Shown here piece by piece: positions 22,458-35,622 of a DNA stretch of 43,340 nucleotides (the stretch's first letter is position 1; each line of letters opens with the position of its first letter). The position numbers and the translations under genes were made by a program. The notes beneath the pieces were generated by a model. It did no database searches and was not told where the DNA came from. It worked only from the letters and a program-made list of their open reading frames with translations. Source of the stretch: a virus. Location of the stretch: positions 1-43,340 of the IMG/VR virus record IMGVR_UViG_3300047094_001413; one strand, given 5' to 3'.

Positions 22458-24347
22458 ATGACGAGTTTTAATATTAATAAAGCAACCCATAAAGATGCAC
22501 AAAAACAAGAAAAAATTAGGAGTATGACAAAATCTCCTAATGAAAATGAAGCAAAGGTTGCTGCAAAAAAATTAAGACCTTCAGCAGCGGTGTCTTTACC
22601 ATTAAAAAATGAATATCAACCATCTTTAGCAGAGTTAGTTCTTGGTGAAGAGATGTGTGGTAAGGGTCACTATTGGTGCAATACAGATAAACAATGTAAA
22701 AAAATTCCATCAGGATTTAAGATTGATGGACAACCAACTGGAACTAAAAGAACTGAAGTAGGAATTGGTAAACCAGTCGCAGAAGAGAAAGAATGCAATC
22801 ATTCTAAAAAAGGAAAAAATTGTCCAATTCATGGGAATGATGATTGTACAGTAAAGGAAGAAAGAGATCCTAAAGGACCAGTTAAAAAATATAAATCTCC
22901 AAAAGAAATTGCTGCAAAGCATAATGTATCAGTTGAAGAAATTAAAAAGCAACTTGAGATGGGTATTAAGGTAGAAGGAGAACATACTTCAAATAAAACT
23001 GCAGCAAGGATTACTGCACTTCAGCATTTAGATGAAGTTCCAGATTATTATACAAAATTAAAAAAAGTTGAATCAAAATCTACAACTTCAGAAAGTGTGA
23101 CAATAGAAGATATGTTTGGCAATAAATTTGTAGAATTTATTGATCTAATTACACCACAAGATGTAATAGATGAGAAAAAAGGATTGTGGGATAACATTCA
23201 TGATCGTAGAGAAAAAGGACTACCTCGCAAAAAACCAGGACAAAAAGGTTATCCAAAAACATTGAATGTTGAAAACCATGTCGATATTGCTATGGGTAAA
23301 GAACTGGATGATGAAGGTTCAATGATTCTAAATCAATTAGAACAAATTGAAATGCATTGTAAGCGTTTGAGGGAAGAGATTAAAAATCCAAAAATGCAAG
23401 TGCCTGCTTGGGTACAATCAAAAATTACTCTTGCTACAGACTACATGGATTCTGCAGCAAATTATATGGCAGGTAAAAATGAAGAATATGAAATTGACGA
23501 AGCAAAAATTCCTGTGACTCGTCAAGCAGGTGAATTTAGATATTCAGGAAAGACTGGTGAAGAGAAAGCAGAAAGAAGAGCAAAAGTTTTAAGTAATTCA
23601 CCAGATCCCAAAAAGCGCAGACAAGCAAATACAATTCGTAGCAAAATTAAAACAGTTGCGGATCGTGATACTGCCAGAGCAAGTTCTGATGCAAGACAAA
23701 AACTTTATCGTGGACAACAAAGAAGAGCAAATGATCTTGCTCGACAATTAATGAATAAGGAAGAGCATGAAATTGGAGAAGCAGTAAGACTTCCTGCAGA
23801 ATTTGGTAATTTAATTGCAGCAATTGTAATGTGGAGAGGAAGAACACAACAACTTACAATGTTCTTCCCTCAGGCAAAAATGCCATCTAAAAAAGATGTT
23901 CAAAGGGAAGTTGAAAAGATTTATCCTGGTGGAAAAGTAATTACCTTTGGTATTACTGATATTGCAAGCAACTATTCTGCAATTGATGCTCCAATCGTTA
24001 GAGTTGGTTATCATGGAGGAAATCTTGGTAAACCAGGACCAAATAAAAATTATGTAAAGCCAATGGGCGAAGAATTCGAGGTTGATGAAGATTGGCAAAA
24101 AGTTAATCGTCAAGATAAAACCGATGGATTGAGCAAAAAAGCAGTAAATGCATATCGTCGTGAAAATCCAGGTTCAAAGTTACAAACTGCAGTAACTGAA
24201 AAAAATCCAGAAGGAAAAAGAGCAAAACGTCGTTCAAATTTTTGTAGTCGCATGAAAGGCATGAAGTCAAAATTGACTTCTGCAGAAACTTCTAGAGATC
24301 CAGATTCTAGAATCAACAAAGCACTTCGTCGTTGGAATTGTAACTAA
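22458..24347 (+). CDS. DUF5872/DUF6321-like protein between terminase subunits
   Basis: A 629-residue, Lys-rich, probably modular protein; I start it at the ATG at 22458. Near residues 70-95 is a GHYWCNTDKQCKKIPSGF motif, followed by a second Cys/His cluster (CNHSKKGKNCPIHGNDDC) that could bind metal. A central helical region with EEYEIDEAK and EEHEIGEA linkers follows. The C-terminal 90 residues (DEDWQKVNRQDKTDGLSKKA, then YRRENPGSKLQTAVTEKNP, then RSNFCSRMKGMKSKLTS and DPDSRINKALRRWNCN) match a domain common in marine T4-like phages and some bacteria, which I recall as DUF5872 and/or DUF6321. Cellular role unknown. Its site between gp16 and gp17 suggests a link to packaging or the virion, which is inference. 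Confidence 0.75.
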   Translation: MTSFNINKATHKDAQKQEKIRSMTKSPNENEAKVAAKKLRPSAAVSLPLKNEYQPSLAELVLGEEMCGKGHYWCNTDKQCKKIPSGFKIDGQPTGTKRTEVGIGKPVAEEKECNHSKKGKNCPIHGNDDCTVKEERDPKGPVKKYKSPKEIAAKHNVSVEEIKKQLEMGIKVEGEHTSNKTAARITALQHLDEVPDYYTKLKKVESKSTTSESVTIEDMFGNKFVEFIDLITPQDVIDEKKGLWDNIHDRREKGLPRKKPGQKGYPKTLNVENHVDIAMGKELDDEGSMILNQLEQIEMHCKRLREEIKNPKMQVPAWVQSKITLATDYMDSAANYMAGKNEEYEIDEAKIPVTRQAGEFRYSGKTGEEKAERRAKVLSNSPDPKKRRQANTIRSKIKTVADRDTARASSDARQKLYRGQQRRANDLARQLMNKEEHEIGEAVRLPAEFGNLIAAIVMWRGRTQQLTMFFPQAKMPSKKDVQREVEKIYPGGKVITFGITDIASNYSAIDAPIVRVGYHGGNLGKPGPNKNYVKPMGEEFEVDEDWQKVNRQDKTDGLSKKAVNAYRRENPGSKLQTAVTEKNPEGKRAKRRSNFCSRMKGMKSKLTSAETSRDPDSRINKALRRWNCN

Positions 24348-24367
24348 AAAATTAAAAGGTTTATATT

Positions 24368-26014
24368 ATGGCAGTTGATCATTATCTTGGCAATCCACTA
24401 TTAAAAAAAGCAAATACTTCTCAGGGATTTACTGAAGAGCAGGTTATTGAATTTGCTAAGTGTATTGATGACCCAGTTTATTTTGCAAGAAATTATATTA
24501 ATATTGTTACTTTGGACCATGGATTACAAACATTTAATCCATATCCATTCCAAGAAACAATGTTGGACCGATTTCACAATAATCGATTCAATATTTGTAA
24601 ACTTCCTAGACAGTCTGGTAAATCAACAATTGTTGTTTCTTATCTTCTACATTATGCTATTTTTAATGATAATGTAAATATTGCAATTCTTGCTAACAAA
24701 GCATCTACTGCAAAAGACTTGCTAGATAGACTACAGACTGCATATGAAAATTTACCTCGTTGGTTACAACAAGGTGTTTTGACATGGAACAAGGCATCTC
24801 TTGAACTAGAAAACGGATCTAAAATTATTGCAGCATCAACATCCGCATCTGCAGTTCGAGGTGGATCTTATAATATTATTTTCCTTGACGAATTTGCGTT
24901 CGTTGCAAATCATATTGCTGATCAGTTTTTTAGCTCAGTTTATCCTACAATTTCGTCTGGTAAAAATACAAAGGTTATAATTGTTTCTACCCCACATGGT
25001 ATGAATCATTTTTATAAACTTTGGCATGATGCAGAAAGGGGTAAAAATGAATATATTCCGACTGAGGTTCATTGGAGTGATGTTCCTGGGAGAGATGAAG
25101 TATGGAAGAAGCAAACTATTGCAAATACATCAGAGCAGCAATTCAGGGTTGAGTTTGAATGTGAATTCTTAGGATCTGTTGATACATTGATTAGTCCAAG
25201 TAAACTAAGAAATTTGGTTTACGAATCTCCAGCAATTAGTAACCAGGGACTTGATGTTTTTGAAGATTCTAAGGAAGAGCACAATTATGTCATAACCGTT
25301 GACGTTGCTAGAGGAGTTGGTAGTGATTATTCAGCGTTTACTGTTATTGATATAACACAATTCCCACATACTTTAGTAGCAAAGTATAGAGATAATGAAA
25401 TAAAACCAATGATATTTCCCAGTATTATTCATGAGGTGGCTAAAAATTACAATGATGCTTACATATTATGTGAAGTAAATGATGTTGGAGATCAAGTTGC
25501 TAGTATTTTACAATATGATTTAGAGTACAACAACCTGCTTATGTGTTCAATGAGGGGTAGAGCAGGTCAAATTGTTGGGCAAGGTTTTTCTGGCAAAAAG
25601 ACCCAACTTGGTGTCAAGATGTCAAAAACTGTTAAAAAAGTTGGATGTCTTAACCTTAAAACTTTAGTTGAAGAAAGTAAACTTTTATTTAAAGATTACG
25701 ATATTATTAGTGAATTAACTACATTCATTCAAAAATCAAATTCCTTTGAAGCGGAAGATGGGTGTAATGATGATTTAGCAATGTGCCTAGTAATATATGC
25801 TTGGTTAGTTGTTCAGGATTATTTTAAAGAACTTACAGATCAAGATGTTAGGAAAAGATTGTATGAAGAGCAAAAAAATCAAATAGAACAAGATATGGCA
25901 CCATTTGGATTTATTGTTGATGGTTTAGATTCAAATAGTTTTGTTGATGGTGATGGTGATAGATGGTTTACTGATGAATATGGGGATATGTCTTACATGT
26001 GGGAGTACAAATAA
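24368..26014 (+). CDS. gp17: Terminase large subunit gp17
   Basis: The ATP-driven DNA packaging motor with a headful nuclease, docking on gp20. The 548-residue product shows Walker A at residues 79-87 (LPRQSGKST), Walker B ending in the DE pair 174-175 (IIFLDEFAF) and a coupling-type IVSTPHG at about 205. In the nuclease half are Asp312 (ITVDVARGVGSDYSAF), Glu369 (CEVNDVGDQ) and the NDDLAM motif at 467-472, matching the acidic triad of T4 gp17 (610 aa). Nothing appears to be missing, and there is no intein or intron. AAAAGG 8 bases before the ATG is the ribosome site. The stop overlaps the next start as TAATG. Confidence 0.96.
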   Translation: MAVDHYLGNPLLKKANTSQGFTEEQVIEFAKCIDDPVYFARNYINIVTLDHGLQTFNPYPFQETMLDRFHNNRFNICKLPRQSGKSTIVVSYLLHYAIFNDNVNIAILANKASTAKDLLDRLQTAYENLPRWLQQGVLTWNKASLELENGSKIIAASTSASAVRGGSYNIIFLDEFAFVANHIADQFFSSVYPTISSGKNTKVIIVSTPHGMNHFYKLWHDAERGKNEYIPTEVHWSDVPGRDEVWKKQTIANTSEQQFRVEFECEFLGSVDTLISPSKLRNLVYESPAISNQGLDVFEDSKEEHNYVITVDVARGVGSDYSAFTVIDITQFPHTLVAKYRDNEIKPMIFPSIIHEVAKNYNDAYILCEVNDVGDQVASILQYDLEYNNLLMCSMRGRAGQIVGQGFSGKKTQLGVKMSKTVKKVGCLNLKTLVEESKLLFKDYDIISELTTFIQKSNSFEAEDGCNDDLAMCLVIYAWLVVQDYFKELTDQDVRKRLYEEQKNQIEQDMAPFGFIVDGLDSNSFVDGDGDRWFTDEYGDMSYMWEYK

Positions 26015-26244
26015 TGGAGTTAGACAAGCAGATAAAACTAAGTCACTTATTGCTTGTAGATAGAAAATGCAGAGTATGTGGAGAAAATAAAAATTTAATT
26101 GATGGATTTTACAGAACTCGTAAAAAAAGGGGAACAGTTGCATCATCATATTCCTATGAATGTAAAGATTGCACGGTAAAAAGAATTGTAAATTCTAGAA
26201 AAAAACTAGTCAAAGTTGCTGAATGGGAATATCCTGACTGGTAA
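26014..26244 (+). CDS. Small zinc-ribbon-type protein after gp17
   Basis: A 76-residue protein starting at the ATG that shares its A with the gp17 stop (TAATG), which indicates translational coupling. Two CxxC pairs, Cys19-Cys22 and Cys50-Cys53, can bind one zinc ion as a zinc ribbon or treble clef. A basic segment between them (RTRKKRGTVASS) and a basic tail (KRIVNSRKK) could touch nucleic acid. The CxxC--CxxC spacing also resembles the metal site of HNH proteins, but I see no HNH catalytic residues. Function unknown; its site at the end of the packaging genes is suggestive only. Confidence 0.7.
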   Translation: MELDKQIKLSHLLLVDRKCRVCGENKNLIDGFYRTRKKRGTVASSYSYECKDCTVKRIVNSRKKLVKVAEWEYPDW

Positions 26245-26280
26245 TTAATGTTCACCCACAATTTCCCCCATGTAATTACC
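26240..26280 (+). repeat. 8-bp inverted repeat between packaging and tail genes
   Basis: GGTAATTA (26240-26247) pairs perfectly with TAATTACC (26273-26280) across a 25-base loop. It begins at the stop codon of the small zinc-type gene and lies just before the gp18 late-type box. There is no T-run, so it is not a classic intrinsic terminator. It might be a weak 3' end or RNA processing structure, or chance. Confidence 0.3.
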
Positions 26281-26286
26281 CATTTT

Positions 26287-26294
26287 CCTAAATA
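26287..26294 (+). promoter_or_regulatory. Candidate late promoter box before gp18
   Basis: CCTAAATA, a CTAAATA-type variant of the late box, in the only intergenic gap (87 bases) of this part of the window and 37 bases before the gp18 ATG. A GGAGA ribosome site follows at about 26320. The same CTAAATA core precedes gp3 and the 57-residue gene. Confidence 0.4.
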
Positions 26295-26331
26295 TTTTCA
26301 GATAAACTGAGAATTTTACGGAGAATTATCC

Positions 26332-27333
26332 ATGGCGACTCCTCAATTATCTCCTGGTGTACTGACTAGAGAGGTTGATTTAACCGTAGGAAGAGCTGAC
26401 AACGTATTAGATAATATTGGAGGTATTGCAGGACCTTTTGAAATTGGTCCTGTAAACGAACCAATTACTGTTGCTACGGAACAGGAACTAATCAACAACT
26501 TTGGTAAGCCACAAACAGCAGATAACCAGTATGAATATTGGATGAGTGGTTCATCTTACCTCTCATATGGCGGTGTTCTAAAGGTCGTTAGAACTGATGG
26601 TGCTAACCTTTCAAACGCTAACGTTGGTGTTGGTACAACTAGCGTAACTGGTGTTAAAATCAAAAACTTTGATGATTTTAATGCAAACTTCACAAATACT
26701 GCAGCAAGTTTTTACTACGCTGCAAAAAACCCAGGAACATGGGCAAATGGGTTAAAGGTTTGCTACATTGATGATTTAGGAGATCAAATTCTTGGTATTG
26801 CAACAACTGCTTTAAGCAGCATTGGTGTTCAAGTTGGATATGCAGTAACAGTAGATATTAGTGGTCAAGTTATTCCTGGAACTGGAACGACTGCTGTCTT
26901 CCAAGGATATTTAAAAGGAGTTATTACTCAAGCAATTGATTCTCCAGAAACTGGTGTTAGTGCTGTAGTCGTAAAAATTCATTCTAGAGTTTCTACTGGT
27001 GGAACTGAGCCTGGAAGACATTTTAGAACATATTATACCCAAAATAGTGCTTTTGCATCTTTCTTAAAAGATCAAAGGATTACCGTTATTGATAATAATG
27101 GAGAAGTTGCCTCACCAACAGATTCTATTTCTGCAGTAGGAGTTACATCATCTACCGCAATAAATGGTCAACAAGGACAATCATATACTGGAGTTGGTGG
27201 AACAACTGCGGGAACTGGGTCTGGAGCAACATTCACCATCACTAGAAATAATACTGATGGTAATGTTTTGAGTGCAAGTATTGTAAATGCAGGATTAGGT
27301 TACACTGTAGGTGACACAGTATCTATTGCTTGA
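26332..27333 (+). CDS. gp18: Tail sheath protein gp18, N-terminal part up to in-frame TGA
   Basis: The subunit of the contractile sheath. The start is typical of the family (MATPQLSPGVLTREVDLTVG, then NIGGIAGPFEIGPVNEPITV). This part of 333 residues ends at the TGA at 27331-27333, in the middle of a Gly-Tyr repeat (VNAGLGYTVGDTVSIA). The same frame continues without another stop to 29127, giving 932 codons in all against 659 residues in T4. The extra length is a repeat-rich insert around residues 285-420. Ribosome site GGAGA precedes the ATG. Without readthrough the product would lack the conserved C-terminal core and could not polymerise, so either the TGA is a sequence error or mutation, or it is read through. 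Confidence 0.85.
   Translation: MATPQLSPGVLTREVDLTVGRADNVLDNIGGIAGPFEIGPVNEPITVATEQELINNFGKPQTADNQYEYWMSGSSYLSYGGVLKVVRTDGANLSNANVGVGTTSVTGVKIKNFDDFNANFTNTAASFYYAAKNPGTWANGLKVCYIDDLGDQILGIATTALSSIGVQVGYAVTVDISGQVIPGTGTTAVFQGYLKGVITQAIDSPETGVSAVVVKIHSRVSTGGTEPGRHFRTYYTQNSAFASFLKDQRITVIDNNGEVASPTDSISAVGVTSSTAINGQQGQSYTGVGGTTAGTGSGATFTITRNNTDGNVLSASIVNAGLGYTVGDTVSIA
27331..27333 (+). other. In-frame TGA inside gp18
   Basis: Codon 334 of gp18. Aligning the two repeat units of the same protein (TVSIA-X-TAVG against VVTIP-G-ASIG) puts the stop where the other copy has a GGA glycine, so a single G-to-T change explains it. The next base is A (TGA-A), a context known to be leaky in E. coli. TGA serves as the ordinary stop of gp21, gp22, gp23, gp3 and uvsY here, so the code is standard. 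Confidence 0.9.
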
Positions 27334-29127
27334 ACTGCAGTCGGTTGTTACAATTTATCCCAAGGTGTTATTAACAATATTGGACTTACAACTGCTCCTG
27401 TAGTTGTAGCAGCATCTAATGGAGTATATCTTGCTGTTGCTGGAGTAAGCACAGTTGGAACTGGTGTGTCGTTTAATGTTTATAGAAATAGTTCTGGTGG
27501 AATTGGAACTGTTACAATGGTCAATCCTGGACTAGGATATGGTTCAAATACAGTTGTTACTATTCCTGGAGCATCAATTGGTGGTGTAACTCCTGGAGAT
27601 AATGCAACTTTAACCATCACATCTTTAAGGGATGATAAAGTTGTTCTTACAGTAACAAATAGCAATTCGAGAGTTGTGATTGCAGGCGTTGATGACTGGT
27701 ATGATTCTCAAACTTTAGGATTAAGTAATTCAACCATTTATTGGAGAACAGTTGCACCAAAACCAGGAACATCAAATTATGTTTCTGAAAGAGGTGGAGA
27801 AAATGATGAGATGCACGTTATAGTTGTTGATGACGATGGTACATTAACTGGCGTAAAGGGAAATATTCTTGAGAAGCATCTCTTTATGTCCAAAGCAAAG
27901 GACACTGTATCTGAAGTTAATTCTCCACAAAAAATGTGGTACAAGAATTATCTTGCAAATTATTCAAACTATCTGTACGCTGGTGCCAACCAATCAACTC
28001 AAAATGATATAGTTTGGAATACATTCCCAACATCAACAATATTTAATTTAGCAGCAACTCAAACAATTTATAATTTATCAGATCCAGCAACTACGTTTAG
28101 TGTTCCATCATTAGCAAATACAGTTTGGGATAGAAACTCTAAGGATTCAGTATTCTCTTCCATTGGTAGAGTTGTTTATGACTTAGGCAAGGGTAAAAAT
28201 TACACAACTCAAGGTAATTTAAAATCTACCCTAGGAGATATTATTGAATCATATGAGTTATTCAATAATAAAGAAGATGTTGCTGTAGACTACCTGCTTA
28301 TGGGACCAGGATTGGATTCTCTTAGTGATTCCCAAGCAAAGGCAAATAAACTAATTTCTATCGCTGACGGTAGAAAAGATTGTATTGCGGTAGTATCTCC
28401 ACACAGAGCATCTGTTGTTGATCTAACAAACCCAATTGTTCAAACTAATAATATTATTGAATTCTTTGGTCCACTTCAATCTTCATCATATGCAATTTTT
28501 GATAGTGGTTATAAGTACACTTATGATAGATTTAATAACTTATTCCGATATATTCCTTGCAACCCAGACGTTGCTGGTCTAATGGCAAGAACAAACTTAA
28601 TTGCTTATCCATGGTTCTCACCTGCTGGTCAGCAAAGAGGTGTTCTGAAGAATGCTATCAAGTTGGCATTCAATCCAAATAAAACTCAAAGAGATGCTTT
28701 ATACTCAGCGAGAATTAATTCTATCGTAAATCAAAATGGTGCAGGTATTCTTCTATTCGGAGATAAAACTGCATTATCATATGCATCTGCATTTGATAGA
28801 ATTAACGTTCGTAGATTATTCTTAACTGTTGAACAAGCACTCGAAAGAGCAGCAGAAGCTCAACTCTTTGAATTTAATGATCAAATTACGAGATCTAATT
28901 TTGTAAATATCGTCGAACCATACTTACGTGATATCCAAGCTAAGCGTGGAATCTATGACTTCCTTGTAATTTGCGACGAAACCAACAACACTCCAGATAT
29001 TATTGATAACAATGAATTTAGAGCTGATATATTCTTGAAGCCAGCTAAATCAATTAACTATATCACCCTAACATTTGTTGCGACAAGAACTGGAGTCAGT
29101 TTTGAAGAAGTCGCTGGTAGAGTTTAA
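27334..29127 (+). CDS. gp18: Tail sheath protein gp18, C-terminal part downstream of TGA
   Basis: In frame with the upstream part and free of stops for 597 codons. The first possible restart is a GTG at 27466; no ribosome site is visible before it, so an independent gene is unlikely. After a repeat unit (VNPGLGYGSNTVVTIPG) comes the conserved sheath core: GVKGNILEKHLFMSKAKDTV, VDYLLMGPGLDSL, RKDCIAVVSPHRASVVDL, YPWFSPAGQQRGVLKNAIKL and the C-terminal EPYLRDIQAKRGIYDFLVIC followed by NYITLTFVATRTGVSFEEV. These segments form the inner domains that bind the tube and neighbouring subunits. Gene gp19 follows after 38 bases. Confidence 0.85.
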   Translation, partial: TAVGCYNLSQGVINNIGLTTAPVVVAASNGVYLAVAGVSTVGTGVSFNVYRNSSGGIGTVTMVNPGLGYGSNTVVTIPGASIGGVTPGDNATLTITSLRDDKVVLTVTNSNSRVVIAGVDDWYDSQTLGLSNSTIYWRTVAPKPGTSNYVSERGGENDEMHVIVVDDDGTLTGVKGNILEKHLFMSKAKDTVSEVNSPQKMWYKNYLANYSNYLYAGANQSTQNDIVWNTFPTSTIFNLAATQTIYNLSDPATTFSVPSLANTVWDRNSKDSVFSSIGRVVYDLGKGKNYTTQGNLKSTLGDIIESYELFNNKEDVAVDYLLMGPGLDSLSDSQAKANKLISIADGRKDCIAVVSPHRASVVDLTNPIVQTNNIIEFFGPLQSSSYAIFDSGYKYTYDRFNNLFRYIPCNPDVAGLMARTNLIAYPWFSPAGQQRGVLKNAIKLAFNPNKTQRDALYSARINSIVNQNGAGILLFGDKTALSYASAFDRINVRRLFLTVEQALERAAEAQLFEFNDQITRSNFVNIVEPYLRDIQAKRGIYDFLVICDETNNTPDIIDNNEFRADIFLKPAKSINYITLTFVATRTGVSFEEVAGRV

Positions 29128-29165
29128 CCTACTTAATGATTAAATAAAAAGGAGGAACCCTAACA

Positions 29166-29765
29166 ATGGCAAGAACAATTAGAACTATCACCGACTTTAA
29201 AGCAAGACTTCAAGGCGGTGCAGCAAGACCAAATTTATTTGAGGTTAGTATTCCACGTTTTCCAGCTTCTGTAGCTGGTTGGGATGATGAGACCTTTAAC
29301 TTTCTTTGTAAAGCAGCTGCTTTACCTGCATCAAATGTTGCATCAATTGATGTTCCATTTAGAGGAAGAATTTTAAAAGTTGCTGGAGATCGCACATTCG
29401 ATGTTTGGACTGTTACAGTTATCAATGATGAAGACTTTAAATTAAGAACTTCATTTGAACAGTGGATGAATCAGATTAGCAAATTGAACAATGCTACTGG
29501 TGCAACTAGTCCCGCATCTTATATGGTTGATGCATATGTACATCAACTTGGTAGAGGTGAGGCAAGATTCTCCACCAGAAATACTTCAAACACTACAAAT
29601 ACTCCATTAAGAACATACAGACTTTACGATATATTCCCAACAAATGTATCTCAAATTGATCTTTCATATGATACATCAGATACTATTGAGGAGTATACTG
29701 TAGACTTCCAAGTTCAGTGGTGGCAAGCTGAGGGTAACGACCAAACTAACACTGCTATTGTATAA
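29166..29765 (+). CDS. gp19: Tail tube protein gp19
   Basis: The subunit of the inner tail tube through which DNA passes. It has 199 residues (T4 163) and begins MARTIRTITDFKARLQGGAA then RPNLFEVSIPRFP. Characteristic pieces are CKAAALPASNVASIDVPFRG, RTFDVWTVTVINDEDFKLR and the end DTSDTIEEYTVDFQVQWWQ. A very strong ribosome site, AAAAGGAGGA, lies just before the ATG, as expected for a protein made in hundreds of copies. An ATTAAATA box at 29139-29146 could be a late promoter, though it nearly touches the ribosome site. It follows gp18 as in T4. Confidence 0.93.
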   Translation: MARTIRTITDFKARLQGGAARPNLFEVSIPRFPASVAGWDDETFNFLCKAAALPASNVASIDVPFRGRILKVAGDRTFDVWTVTVINDEDFKLRTSFEQWMNQISKLNNATGATSPASYMVDAYVHQLGRGEARFSTRNTSNTTNTPLRTYRLYDIFPTNVSQIDLSYDTSDTIEEYTVDFQVQWWQAEGNDQTNTAIV

Positions 29766-29771
29766 TAAATA
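29764..29771 (+). promoter_or_regulatory. Candidate late promoter box before gp20
   Basis: AATAAATA overlapping the gp19 TAA stop and ending 28 bases before the gp20 ATG. This is the same stop-overlapping arrangement and the same spacing as before gp8. A second TTTAAATA lies at 29781-29788. Confidence 0.5.
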
Positions 29772-29799
29772 GTAGAACAGTTTAAATAACTCACTTATA

Positions 29800-31446
29800 A
29801 TGGCAAAACTATTTGGATTCTCTATAGAGGATAGTAATAAAAAATCACCAGGAGTGGTCTCCCCCGTACCTCAAAATAATGAGGACGGGGTTGACTATTA
29901 TCTTACTAGTGGATTTTTTGGGTCTTATGTAGATATTGAAGGGGTATATAGAAGTGAATATGATTTAATCAAAAGATATCGAGAGATGGCATTGCATCCA
30001 GAAGTTGATGGTGCTATTGAAGATATTGTAAATGAGGCAATTGTAAGTGATACCAATGATAGTCCAGTTCAAATTGATCTTGACAATCTAAATGCTAGTG
30101 ATGGTCTTAAGAAAAAAATAAGAGAAGAGTTTAAGCATATTTTAGAATTAATGGACTTTGATAAAAAAGCCCATGAGATCTATAGAAATTGGTATGTTGA
30201 CGGTAGACTTTATTATCATAAAGTTATTGACTTAAAAAATCCACAAGATGGCATTCAGGAACTAAGATATATTGACGCATTGAAAATGCGATATGTTAGG
30301 CAGTCTTCTAAGGGTAAGAAAGATGATGGAAGACTTGGACCTAATGGTGAAAAGGATCCAATGGATTCTGCATTTCCAGATATTCAGGAATACTTTATTT
30401 ACAATGCCTCAGCAACTCAAATAGGAACAATCAATAATAGTTCAAATCAAGTAAATCAAGGAACAAAATTTTCAAAAGATTCTATTACATTTTGTACTTC
30501 TGGTCTAGTCGATAGAAATAAAAATTTAACTCTATCATATTTGCATAAAGCAATTAAATCACTCAATCAACTTCGCATGATTGAAGATTCTTTGGTTATC
30601 TACAGATTATCAAGAGCACCAGAACGTAGAATTTTTTATATTGATGTTGGCAATTTGCCTAAAATGAAGGCAGAACAATATCTTCGTGATGTTATGATGA
30701 GATATCGTAACAAACTGGTATATGATGCAAATACTGGTGAGATTCGTGATGATAAAAAATATATGAGTATGCTTGAGGATTTTTGGCTCCCTAGGAGGGA
30801 AGGTGGTAGAGGAACAGAAATTTCTACTCTTCCTGGTGGTCAAAATTTAGGTGAATTGAGCGATATCAAATACTTCCAAGAAAAGTTATACCGTTCATTA
30901 AACGTACCATCTTCAAGAATTGGTGGTCAAGAAGGATTTAACTTAGGAAGGTCTTCAGAAATTTTAAGAGATGAATTAAAGTTTACTAAATTTGTTGGAA
31001 GATTAAGAAAGAGATTCTCAAACATGTTTAGTGACATGTTAAGAACTCAACTACTTCTTAAAAACATAGTTACTCCAGAAGATTGGGAGTTAATGGAAGA
31101 GCATATTCAATATGACTTCTTATATGATAATCATTTTGCAGAGTTAAAAGATGCTGAATTAATGACTGAAAGGTTAAATATTGCAGCAACAGCAGAACCA
31201 TATATTGGCAAGTATTATTCTCAAGATTATGTAAGACGTAAAATTTTACGTCAAACAGATGAAGAAATCATTGAGCAAGATAAACTTATCAAAAAGGAAA
31301 TTGCTGCTGGCATTATTCCAGACCCAAATGCTCCTATTGATCCTGCAACTGGTCAACCAGTTGCCGCAGATCAGAATCTTGGAGCACCGATTAACGAACC
31401 AAACTTAGATAGTCAAAGTAAATCTGTAGAACCGCCACAAATTTAA
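29800..31446 (+). CDS. gp20: Portal vertex protein gp20
   Basis: A dodecameric portal through which gp17 packages DNA and on which the prohead is nucleated. It has 548 residues (T4 524). Family segments include YLTSGFFGSYVDIEG, RYREMALHPEVDGAIEDIVN, LRYIDALKMRYVR, YRLSRAPERRIFYIDVGNLP, DFWLPRREGGRGTEISTLPG and LNVPSSRIGG. The C-terminal 50 residues are a Pro/Gln/Asn-rich low-complexity tail (GIIPDPNAPIDPATGQPVAA). No obvious ribosome site precedes the ATG. In T4 the next genes are 67, 68 and 21; here a 5-kb accessory island separates gp20 from them. Confidence 0.96.
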   Translation: MAKLFGFSIEDSNKKSPGVVSPVPQNNEDGVDYYLTSGFFGSYVDIEGVYRSEYDLIKRYREMALHPEVDGAIEDIVNEAIVSDTNDSPVQIDLDNLNASDGLKKKIREEFKHILELMDFDKKAHEIYRNWYVDGRLYYHKVIDLKNPQDGIQELRYIDALKMRYVRQSSKGKKDDGRLGPNGEKDPMDSAFPDIQEYFIYNASATQIGTINNSSNQVNQGTKFSKDSITFCTSGLVDRNKNLTLSYLHKAIKSLNQLRMIEDSLVIYRLSRAPERRIFYIDVGNLPKMKAEQYLRDVMMRYRNKLVYDANTGEIRDDKKYMSMLEDFWLPRREGGRGTEISTLPGGQNLGELSDIKYFQEKLYRSLNVPSSRIGGQEGFNLGRSSEILRDELKFTKFVGRLRKRFSNMFSDMLRTQLLLKNIVTPEDWELMEEHIQYDFLYDNHFAELKDAELMTERLNIAATAEPYIGKYYSQDYVRRKILRQTDEEIIEQDKLIKKEIAAGIIPDPNAPIDPATGQPVAADQNLGAPINEPNLDSQSKSVEPPQI

Positions 31447-31449
31447 ATT

Positions 31450-32112
31450 ATGAATCGTTATCATAGATTTTTGGATATTAGGGACTATATCCCTAATATT
31501 GATACATCAAAGTATCAAACTGAAGGTATGAGATGGCCAGAGTTTCATAAACAACTTCAATTTGAAGACCTGGGTAATGATAAAATTTTACCCTGGTTGA
31601 ATAGTTTGGGATTTACATCACACTGGATAGAATTTTTTTATACTCCACCACATGATGATGGAGTTATACATTCTGATAATGTTTATTATGCTGATTGGGC
31701 AAAACTAATATTTCAATTTGGTGCAAAAGGAAGCACCATGAGATGGTGGACATCGGATATGGTTTTAAGAGTAAGTACCAGTGCTGAGCAAGTTTATTCA
31801 ACAGTTATACCAGAACGTAATCAATATAGTGTTGGAGATAGAACTGATGATCATTATCATGGACAAGTTTTAGTCAGTAGAGAAGAATACTGTAAAAAAG
31901 AATATGAGGTAGAGATAGGCACATGCGGATTAGTGAATGTTGGTCCATTACATAGTTCACATAATCCAACAGATGATAAAAGATTTACAGTAACTATTGC
32001 TTTAATTGACAAGGATAAAGATTATGAACATCGTATTTTGTGGGATGAGGCATTGCAAGCATTCAAACCTTACATAATTGATTCTTCAATAGACCTTTGC
32101 GCCGCAAAATAA
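31450..32112 (+). CDS. Putative 2OG-Fe(II) oxygenase-like protein
   Basis: A 220-residue protein starting three bases after gp20. A likely iron-binding HxD is His74-Ser-Asp76 (DDGVIHSDN), with a distal His168 or His171 (GPLHSSHNP) and an Arg178 (DKRFTVTIAL) about ten residues later that could hold 2-oxoglutarate. This is the double-stranded beta-helix HxD...H...R layout of 2OG oxygenases. Asp/Asn-hydroxylase-like members are common in marine phages. Substrate unknown; a phage protein, a host protein or a surface sugar are all possible. Its last 50 bases overlap, tail to tail, the radical SAM gene on the other strand. I am moderately sure of the fold and not of the activity. Confidence 0.6.
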   Translation: MNRYHRFLDIRDYIPNIDTSKYQTEGMRWPEFHKQLQFEDLGNDKILPWLNSLGFTSHWIEFFYTPPHDDGVIHSDNVYYADWAKLIFQFGAKGSTMRWWTSDMVLRVSTSAEQVYSTVIPERNQYSVGDRTDDHYHGQVLVSREEYCKKEYEVEIGTCGLVNVGPLHSSHNPTDDKRFTVTIALIDKDKDYEHRILWDEALQAFKPYIIDSSIDLCAAK

Positions 32113-33835
32113 ACACAGTATGAGGATCATTCTTATCAAATGATTTGAATTCAGTATCTATTTTGTACTTTTTATCTTCACATGTGAGATAAAAAGGATA
32201 TTGAGTCTCCTCGTCAAAAATAAACGCACGTTGTAAAGATATAATATCTGTTTTGATTGGTGTTATTTTTTGTGTTGCATTCTCTACGAGTTTAAAAATT
32301 TCATCCTTATGCGTAAACATAAAAGCAAAACTTCCCGCATGTAAGGTATGCCCATGCTTTCCTTTTTTCAATATTTTTCCAGTTTTCATATAATGATTTA
32401 CCGCAGATTCAATCTCACGATAATGTTCACCTATTAATCCATTATCCAACTTAATAAATTCAAATAAAGTATCATAAAATACCCGATAGGATATATTTAA
32501 ATTTTCATAATAGTGTTTAGCAACTATCTGAGTATATCCAGCAATATGAAATTGAACAATTAACCATCCATACATATACGCTTCAATTAATTGATTATTT
32601 GTCATTGTATTAGTTTCTGAGATTAATTCGATTGTTTCAGTAACACCATCATAATCTCTATCATTTCCAAAAGATACATAATCTTCCGCTTTAATTGTTT
32701 TTATTCCATAAACTTCCCTTGAAGTAGTACTATTTAATTCAGTATCACCAAACATTTGACAAAACCAAACATCAATAGATTCGTGCTGACCACATTCAAG
32801 AATTTTAGAAAACCCATCTTTCCAAGTATCTAAAGTTTCTTCGGGTAGACCAAGAATCAATTCGGTATATGTTTTTACACCATATTCTTTACTTTTTTCA
32901 ATTTGTTCTGATATTTTATTAATACTCATATTTTTTCTTTTGATTGCTTTAAGTGTTGGTTCATTCATGGTTTGTACACTTAAAGTTACACCTCTACTAA
33001 TATCTCCAAGTATTTTTGCTATCTCAAAAATTACTTCAGTAGAATTTTTAGAGTATTGTATGTTTATTGCTTCAAGATTGCCTTCATCTGCTGCTTCTCT
33101 GAATAACTTTGCAATTTCTAAATCTCGTTCTTTAAACATACCAAAATTTGCATCAGCATTAAAAATGAATCCAACATTGTTTTTCCTGGCCCAATCAATA
33201 TCATCTTTAACTCTTTGAATATCAAAGTGCCTTACTTTTGTATAAGTTAATCCACCCCAGTCACAATAAGTGCATCTATGAGGGCAACCCCTGTTAGTTT
33301 CCATAGTCATTGCCCATAAAACACCTGGGTTGTCTTCAATAATTTTATCGAATACCCCAATTTGATATGGACTTGGAAAGTTTAAATCCTCAATTCTTTT
33401 TTTTGCATAGATTTTGTCAATTTTTTCTTTGTTATTTACTTTCCTTAAAAAATCTAAAAATGCTTCCTCACCCTCTGATACAATAATACAGTCGATAAAA
33501 TCATATTCATTTAATCTATGTGTTGCTTGTGGTCCGCCAAATTCAATAATACATTCTGGAAATCTTTCTTTGATTAATTTTGCTACATGAAGATTGTATT
33601 GTTCATTCCAAACATAACAACTAAAAGCACATATTGCAGGGTTATCTAACCTATCAATTAATTCTTCTGGGTCTTCTCTTCTGAATATGAGATCTTTTAA
33701 TGTGTAGTTTTTTACTATATCTTCAAACTGTGAGCAATATGCCCATAAACATCCGACACTATATGGCAACCAATAAGTATCTTCTTTCCTAATTTCAACC
33801 GCATATTGTGGTTGGAGCATGTAAAGATTTTTCAT
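32063..33835 (-). CDS. Radical SAM protein, second tandem copy
   Basis: A 590-residue enzyme of the radical SAM superfamily. The cluster motif is Cys184-x3-Cys188-x2-Cys191 (NRGCPHRCTYCDWGG), which should bind a [4Fe-4S] cluster and SAM. The first 170 residues resemble a B12-binding-type Rossmann domain (AFSCYVWNEQYNLHVAKLIK, IIEFGGPQ, IIVSEGEEAFLDFLR) but lack the DxHxxG cobalamin motif, so B12 use is doubtful. Later radical SAM landmarks are FIFNADANFGMFKERD, SVQTMNEPTLKAIKRKN and YTELILGLPEETLDTWKDG. Its ATG overlaps the stop of the upstream paralogue (ATGA). The substrate cannot be inferred from the sequence. Its 3' end lies inside the oxygenase gene on the other strand. Confidence 0.85.
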   Translation of the reverse strand: MKNLYMLQPQYAVEIRKEDTYWLPYSVGCLWAYCSQFEDIVKNYTLKDLIFRREDPEELIDRLDNPAICAFSCYVWNEQYNLHVAKLIKERFPECIIEFGGPQATHRLNEYDFIDCIIVSEGEEAFLDFLRKVNNKEKIDKIYAKKRIEDLNFPSPYQIGVFDKIIEDNPGVLWAMTMETNRGCPHRCTYCDWGGLTYTKVRHFDIQRVKDDIDWARKNNVGFIFNADANFGMFKERDLEIAKLFREAADEGNLEAINIQYSKNSTEVIFEIAKILGDISRGVTLSVQTMNEPTLKAIKRKNMSINKISEQIEKSKEYGVKTYTELILGLPEETLDTWKDGFSKILECGQHESIDVWFCQMFGDTELNSTTSREVYGIKTIKAEDYVSFGNDRDYDGVTETIELISETNTMTNNQLIEAYMYGWLIVQFHIAGYTQIVAKHYYENLNISYRVFYDTLFEFIKLDNGLIGEHYREIESAVNHYMKTGKILKKGKHGHTLHAGSFAFMFTHKDEIFKLVENATQKITPIKTDIISLQRAFIFDEETQYPFYLTCEDKKYKIDTEFKSFDKNDPHTVFILRRKGLLKNQLCKV

Positions 33836-35622
33836 AGTTTTACCATTGTATTTTTTGTAAGATACTTTCTTTTGATAACGAACAAATTATATCTTTCATC
33901 TTCGGTTCTTTCATTTTCTATGGAATATTTTGTATCTCTTTTTTCCCATGTATCTAAGTCAAACGGTAAACTATCAACATATGGATAATTTACATCTGGG
34001 TCATAAACAAACTTTCTCTGGATATCAAAGATACTTTCTTCTATATTAAAAGTTGTCCTTGCAAAATTTTCAACAAAATCTAGTATCTTATCTTTATTTT
34101 CAAATCTAGATAAAGTATCATTTGGCATACCAACTCCCAATCCATGTCCACTTGAGTGGTTAGAAGGAACTTTTCCAGTATTAAAGTATTCCTTTATTGC
34201 CTTTAAATATTCCCTAAACTCAGTTCCTAAGAAACCAGAAACATACAATGATTCATAAAATTTTCTATAACTTATTCCTAATACATGGCGACAATACTTG
34301 GATAAAATTTGTGTGTATCCAACATAGTGAAATTTAATTGTTATCCAAGAAAACATATGAGCATCAAAAAAGTCTTGTTTAGACATTGTATCAGTCTCAC
34401 AAATTAATTCGACATATTCTTTTGTAGCATCAAACTCATCATTACAGAATGATATATAATCTTCTGCTTTAATTGTTTTTATACCATAAGTTTTTCTACT
34501 AAATTCACTACCCAATTCAGCATTTTCAAATACTTGGCAGAACCAGGAGTCTACAGAAAAATGTTGCCCGTTTTCCATCAACAAATCAATTCCATCCTTC
34601 CAAGAATCTACTGTTTCTTCGGGCATCCCCAAAATTAAATCTGTGTATAATTTTACATTATGTTTTTTTGCTAATTCTACATGTCCAGCAATATCTTTAA
34701 CGTGTAAATTCTTTCTCTTGATAGCTTTTAATGTCGGCATATTCATACTTTGAACACTCAAAGTAACTCCTCTTCTAGAGTATTCTCCCATAATTTTTGC
34801 TATTTCAAAAGCAGATTCGTTTGAATTTTTTGAATACTGCAAATCTATATTGTCTAGAATTAAACTATTTTCAGCTGCTTTACGCAACATTTTTGCTATT
34901 TCAATATCACGTTCTTTAAATATTCCAAAGTTTGCATCAGCGCATAAGACATAAGCAACTCTATGTGTTCGTATCCATTCAATATCTTCAGCGACTCTCT
35001 CTAGTCCAAATGTATTAATTTTACTCATAGTTGTTCCACCCCAATCACAAAAAGTACATCTGTGAGGACAACCTCTATTTGTTTCTAAAATTGCTGCCCA
35101 AATAACATCTGGATTTTTATCATATAACCAATCAAAGACTCCAGATTGATAGGGACTTTTAAAGTCTAAAGAATTTATCCTCGTTCTTTCATGAACTTTA
35201 TTGATTGGATTTCCAGTATTAATGCATCTCAATAATTCTAAAAATGCCTCTTCACCTTCACCAAGAATAACACAATCAATGAATGGATTTTCTTCCATCA
35301 TTTTTGCGGTTACTTGGGGACCACCAAATTCAATAATGCAGTTTGGATATTTTTGTTTTATTAGTTTAGCAAGGTGTAGATTATATTGTTCATTCCATAG
35401 GTAACAACTAAAAGCACAAATTGTAGGATTATCTAATCTTTTTAGCAGTTCTTCTGGATTTTCTCTTTTAAAGATAATATCTTTTAACTCAAATGACTCT
35501 GCTATATCTTTAAATTGTTTACAATAACTCCATAAGCAAGAAACACTATAAGGCATCCAATAATTCTTAGTGTCTCTTACATTAACACTATATTGTGGTT
35601 GGATAAAATATATATTTTTCAT
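33832..35622 (-). CDS. Radical SAM protein, first tandem copy
   Basis: A 596-residue paralogue of the gene just downstream; by eye 68 of the first 100 aligned residues are identical. Cys185, Cys189 and Cys192 (NRGCPHRCTFCDWGG) form the radical SAM cluster site. The N-terminal Rossmann-like domain again lacks DxHxxG. Other shared segments are VLCADANFGIFKERDIEIAK, SVQSMNMPTLKAIKRKN and YTDLILGMPEETVDSWKDG. The two copies diverge most in the C-terminal 150 residues, here with a His/Gly loop (NHSSGHGLGVGMPND). It sits second in a three-gene - strand operon with ATGA overlaps on both sides, so all three are translated together. The product of the reaction is unknown. Confidence 0.85.
   Translation of the reverse strand: MKNIYFIQPQYSVNVRDTKNYWMPYSVSCLWSYCKQFKDIAESFELKDIIFKRENPEELLKRLDNPTICAFSCYLWNEQYNLHLAKLIKQKYPNCIIEFGGPQVTAKMMEENPFIDCVILGEGEEAFLELLRCINTGNPINKVHERTRINSLDFKSPYQSGVFDWLYDKNPDVIWAAILETNRGCPHRCTFCDWGGTTMSKINTFGLERVAEDIEWIRTHRVAYVLCADANFGIFKERDIEIAKMLRKAAENSLILDNIDLQYSKNSNESAFEIAKIMGEYSRRGVTLSVQSMNMPTLKAIKRKNLHVKDIAGHVELAKKHNVKLYTDLILGMPEETVDSWKDGIDLLMENGQHFSVDSWFCQVFENAELGSEFSRKTYGIKTIKAEDYISFCNDEFDATKEYVELICETDTMSKQDFFDAHMFSWITIKFHYVGYTQILSKYCRHVLGISYRKFYESLYVSGFLGTEFREYLKAIKEYFNTGKVPSNHSSGHGLGVGMPNDTLSRFENKDKILDFVENFARTTFNIEESIFDIQRKFVYDPDVNYPYVDSLPFDLDTWEKRDTKYSIENERTEDERYNLFVIKRKYLTKNTMVKL

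Follow-up and report, generated by a model that had tools for sequence, protein, structure and literature searches.

A TGA inside the tail-sheath gene of a T4-like phage contig is probably a consensus error in a metagenome assembly

Does a phage tail-sheath gene interrupted by an in-frame stop codon reflect the biology of the phage or the making of its sequence? Were the stop genuine, it would represent unexpected recoding of a gene essential to the virion. It lies in the gp18 gene of a virus record of 43,340 bases, the whole of which we call the window. Translating positions 26332-29127 gave 932 codons that end in TAA and are interrupted once, by a TGA at codon 334 (27331-27333), confirming the sequence-only reading that the frame is otherwise open and that the TGA is followed by A. 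ORFs called mechanically across the gene are accordingly two, 26332-27333 (333 aa) and 27466-29127. Contig comparisons point strongly to a consensus error, made in a metagenome-assembled contig, as the source of the TGA. The features concerned are the following:

26332..29127, plus strand: gp18 gene (T4-like tail sheath) of 931 codons and a stop, interrupted in this contig by one TGA
27103..27681, plus strand: length-variable sheath insert, about residues 258-450, delimited from tblastn segments and ORF lengths
27331..27333, plus strand: TGA, codon 334, where near-identical contigs and relatives encode glycine; most likely a base-call or consensus error
27346..27348, plus strand: TGT (Cys), codon 339, where near-identical contigs and relatives again encode glycine; probable second member of the error cluster

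That the gene encodes gp18, as had been proposed from the sequence, is borne out by Pfam sheath domains and by matches to cyanophage gp18. Profile searches of the window found Phage_sheath_1 and Phage_sheath_1C in its C-terminal sheath part, plus a weak match to Gp18_domIII_N. The intact protein of a near-identical contig, L001, has the same weak Gp18_domIII_N match and scores 38.1 bits for Phage_sheath_1 and 49.9 bits for Phage_sheath_1C (curated cut-offs, 31.4 and 26.9). The conserved sheath domains occupy residues 670-918. The best named homologues of the sheath frame are cyanophage gp18/tail-sheath proteins, and those of Synechococcus phages S-SCSM1, S-SM2, and Bellamy and of Prochlorococcus phage P-TIM68 have the Pfam sheath domains in common with the window and share ~62-65% identity with it across most of the last 480 residues. 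In contrast, the TGA is found in the window contig only and is absent from the gp18 relatives aligned. An open frame of 931 codons homologous to gp18 is not a product of chance, and the gene occupies the position expected in a T4-like morphogenesis cluster, between these two neighbors:

24368-26014, upstream of the sheath gene: Terminase_6N/6C (T4-type terminase large subunit)
29800-31446, downstream of the sheath gene: Portal_T4 (gp20 portal)

An error is favored because near-identical contigs from other samples have a glycine codon at this site and an intact gene. L001 (IMG/VR 3300042305_000066, 8492 bases) aligns to window positions 23413-31904 with only three mismatches, at 27331, 27346, and 30312, and its sheath ORF of 931 aa is uninterrupted. 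The absence of gaps from this alignment excludes frameshifts and other damage to the sheath frame of the window. A second independent assembly, L082 (3300043773_001763), covers 22920-28187 and, besides a 60-nt deletion, differs from the window at 27331 and 27346 only; like L001, it has glycine codons at both 334 and 339. Two further contigs, L002 (3300033571_013614) and L405 (3300010354_006710), are 98.1% and 97.6% identical to the window in the sheath gene, and each has glycine at both sites and an open 931-aa frame. When the viral_contigs set was scanned with a pattern in which each of the two sites could be G or T, three contigs matched, all of them G/G, and the same pattern scanned over genome_contigs gave zero matches. 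The stop is therefore one base away from near-identical DNA, and these contigs support the earlier suggestion that a single G/T difference from glycine accounts for it. The deletion in L082 (20 codons, in frame) corresponds approximately to window positions 26554-26613, lies between two TTCA copies, and falls in the sheath gene's conserved N-terminal region; an artefact and a real deletion are both possible.

The second difference, at 27346, was missing from the sequence-only reading. It lies 15 nt downstream of 27331 and gives the window TGT (Cys) where relatives have GGT (Gly). At both positions the window has T and the relatives have G, the context is TGG, and conserved glycines are turned into a stop and a cysteine. 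Within the sheath gene, 41 of the 52 differences between the window and L002 are at third codon positions, whereas the comparison with L001 yields zero third-position changes and the private pair consists of a nonsense and a Gly-to-Cys change. Two of three differences lying this close together in 8492 bases would be expected in roughly 1% of cases (three pairs × 30/8492), a rough figure taken before demanding that both differences be of the same kind.

Wider relatives show the same conservation. Alignment to close gp18 relatives, which had been put forward as a check, gave glycine at codon 334: in 94 aligned stretches, some of which share a contig, this codon is GGT in 72, GGA in 15, GGC in 1, and TCC in 6, and none has a stop. 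All six TCC rows also read TTT at codon 339; they are probably aligned one codon out of register. Glycine also occupies position 334 in 54 of 56 tblastn matches. The sheath proteins sort into groups of ~720-746, 794-826, and 908-938 aa, with residues ~258-450 unaligned in most of the shorter ones; the insert is present in relatives of 908-938 aa and absent or unalignable in most of those of 720-746 aa. Thus, the window's lineage (931 aa) differs from shorter gp18 relatives (about 720-746 aa) by an insert of ~200 residues, and the TGA does fall in it, as the repeat insert of the sequence-only reading implied. The accompanying view that a replacement at this point would be nearly harmless is not supported, given that Gly334 and Gly339 are conserved in almost every relative having the insert. 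The insert, which is seen in the long-sheath lineage of these phages, itself contains a glycine-rich GLGY-type repeat in two copies.

A chimera or gene conversion was also considered as the source of the window bases and was rejected, the joint T/T pattern being absent from all other loci retrieved at that stage. The sheath frame is broken in 1 of the 80 loci first fetched, through frameshifts; in this close relative (L052, 2019-4818), the gene is spread over three frames, and the break is probably another assembly or sequencing error.

Similar blemishes are found elsewhere in the window. Near-identical contigs jointly span most of it, and two of them (L085 and L254) are 100% identical to it, while L165 differs at positions 9 and 3873. 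At position 9 the window has T (Tyr) and L165 has G (Asp), G being present also in L183, a 77% relative. At 34233-34241, within a radical-SAM/B12-binding gene, the window shows two substitutions and a 15-nt in-frame loss compared with L404, L464, and L405, which are otherwise 99-100% identical to it, and more distant relatives side with these three contigs. At each of the five suspect sites (positions 9, 27331, and 27346 and the two substitutions near 34233-34241), the window repeats the preceding plus-strand base, which would be the following base on a minus-strand read; a random wrong base would produce this five-site pattern about 1 time in 243, although the pattern was spotted after the fact. 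The 15-nt loss near 34241 may be genuine variation. It removes residues near EYTMND, and a short perfect inverted repeat (CATTGTAT...ATACAATG) overlaps the missing stretch.

If the TGA is a consensus error, the phage represented by the contig would have an unbroken tail-sheath gene of 931 aa in which codon 334 encodes glycine, and two wrong bases 15 nt apart would each have been called as the preceding base (TGG to TTG). A single poor read, or a few of them, across a thinly covered spot would be the most likely source, and we infer a combination of low coverage and phasing-type miscalls. Phasing, in which a read shows the neighboring base, is a documented source of Illumina error, and C-to-A and G-to-T rates were the highest in some samples of one study (PMC6053417). 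Moreover, motif-linked substitution errors that survive quality filtering have been described in metagenomic Illumina data (PMC4787001). Judged from the contig comparison, the window appears to resemble short-read metagenome assembly errors of this type (PMC6053417, PMC4787001) in its isolated, clustered private substitutions, which fall in conserved codons and repeat a neighboring base.

Three readings had been offered for the stop: an error, a real mutant, and readthrough yielding a short and a full-length product. The first is favored here, and the second is its main rival, much less likely but still to be reckoned with. Under it, minority phage genomes would carry the nonsense change with a linked Gly-to-Cys change, and the assembler would have chosen this allele, yielding a 333-aa fragment without the subtilisin-like and C-terminal sheath domains; such a defective genome could persist solely through complementation in mixed infections. 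A single-base change in otherwise near-identical DNA fits this view, and minority alleles can enter metagenome contigs. However, it requires two linked transversions at conserved glycines without one third-position change from L001, similar blemishes occur elsewhere in the same contig, and truncation would lose the conserved sheath domains at residues 670-918. We therefore regard a real defective allele as unlikely.

Far less probable still is that the TGA has a function. Stop-codon readthrough does occur in virion proteins, for example, in some RNA phage coat proteins, and the window shares with these cases an in-frame stop in a structural gene; the frame is also open past the stop, and A comes after the TGA. 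Programmed or tolerated readthrough giving short and full-length sheath proteins is nevertheless highly improbable, most of all because near-identical strains are without the stop, which is conserved neither in close relatives nor in any relative aligned. No recoding signal was found at the TGA: folding of the 101 nt that follow it was no more stable than that of shuffled sequences (z, -0.62), no Rfam family was matched around the sheath gene, and no tRNA gene was found in the window, where TGA ends 8 of the 25 listed ORFs. Readthrough also leaves the neighboring Gly-to-Cys difference unexplained. Equally slight is the chance of a real subpopulation that has the TGA and obtains full-length sheath through near-cognate readthrough, the short N-terminal fragment being left over as a by-product. 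Some phages are also known to reassign stop codons, and under an alternative genetic code TGA could specify an amino acid or selenocysteine. However, the sheath gene has just one in-frame TGA, relatives have glycine at this codon, and 8 other ORFs of the contig end normally in TGA, which is therefore not reassigned, leaving this reading, too, barely credible. For metagenome phage contigs in general, the consensus error favored here suggests that single-base oddities be checked first against near-identical contigs from other samples.

A further feature of the window lies in the same region as the 34233-34241 blemish. Two adjacent genes on the minus strand, 32063-33835 and 33832-35622, each encode radical-SAM plus B12-binding domains and run opposite to the T4-like morphogenesis cluster that encloses them. 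They are apparently related to each other, as DNA of L002 from one of the genes aligns to the other at ~69-71%.
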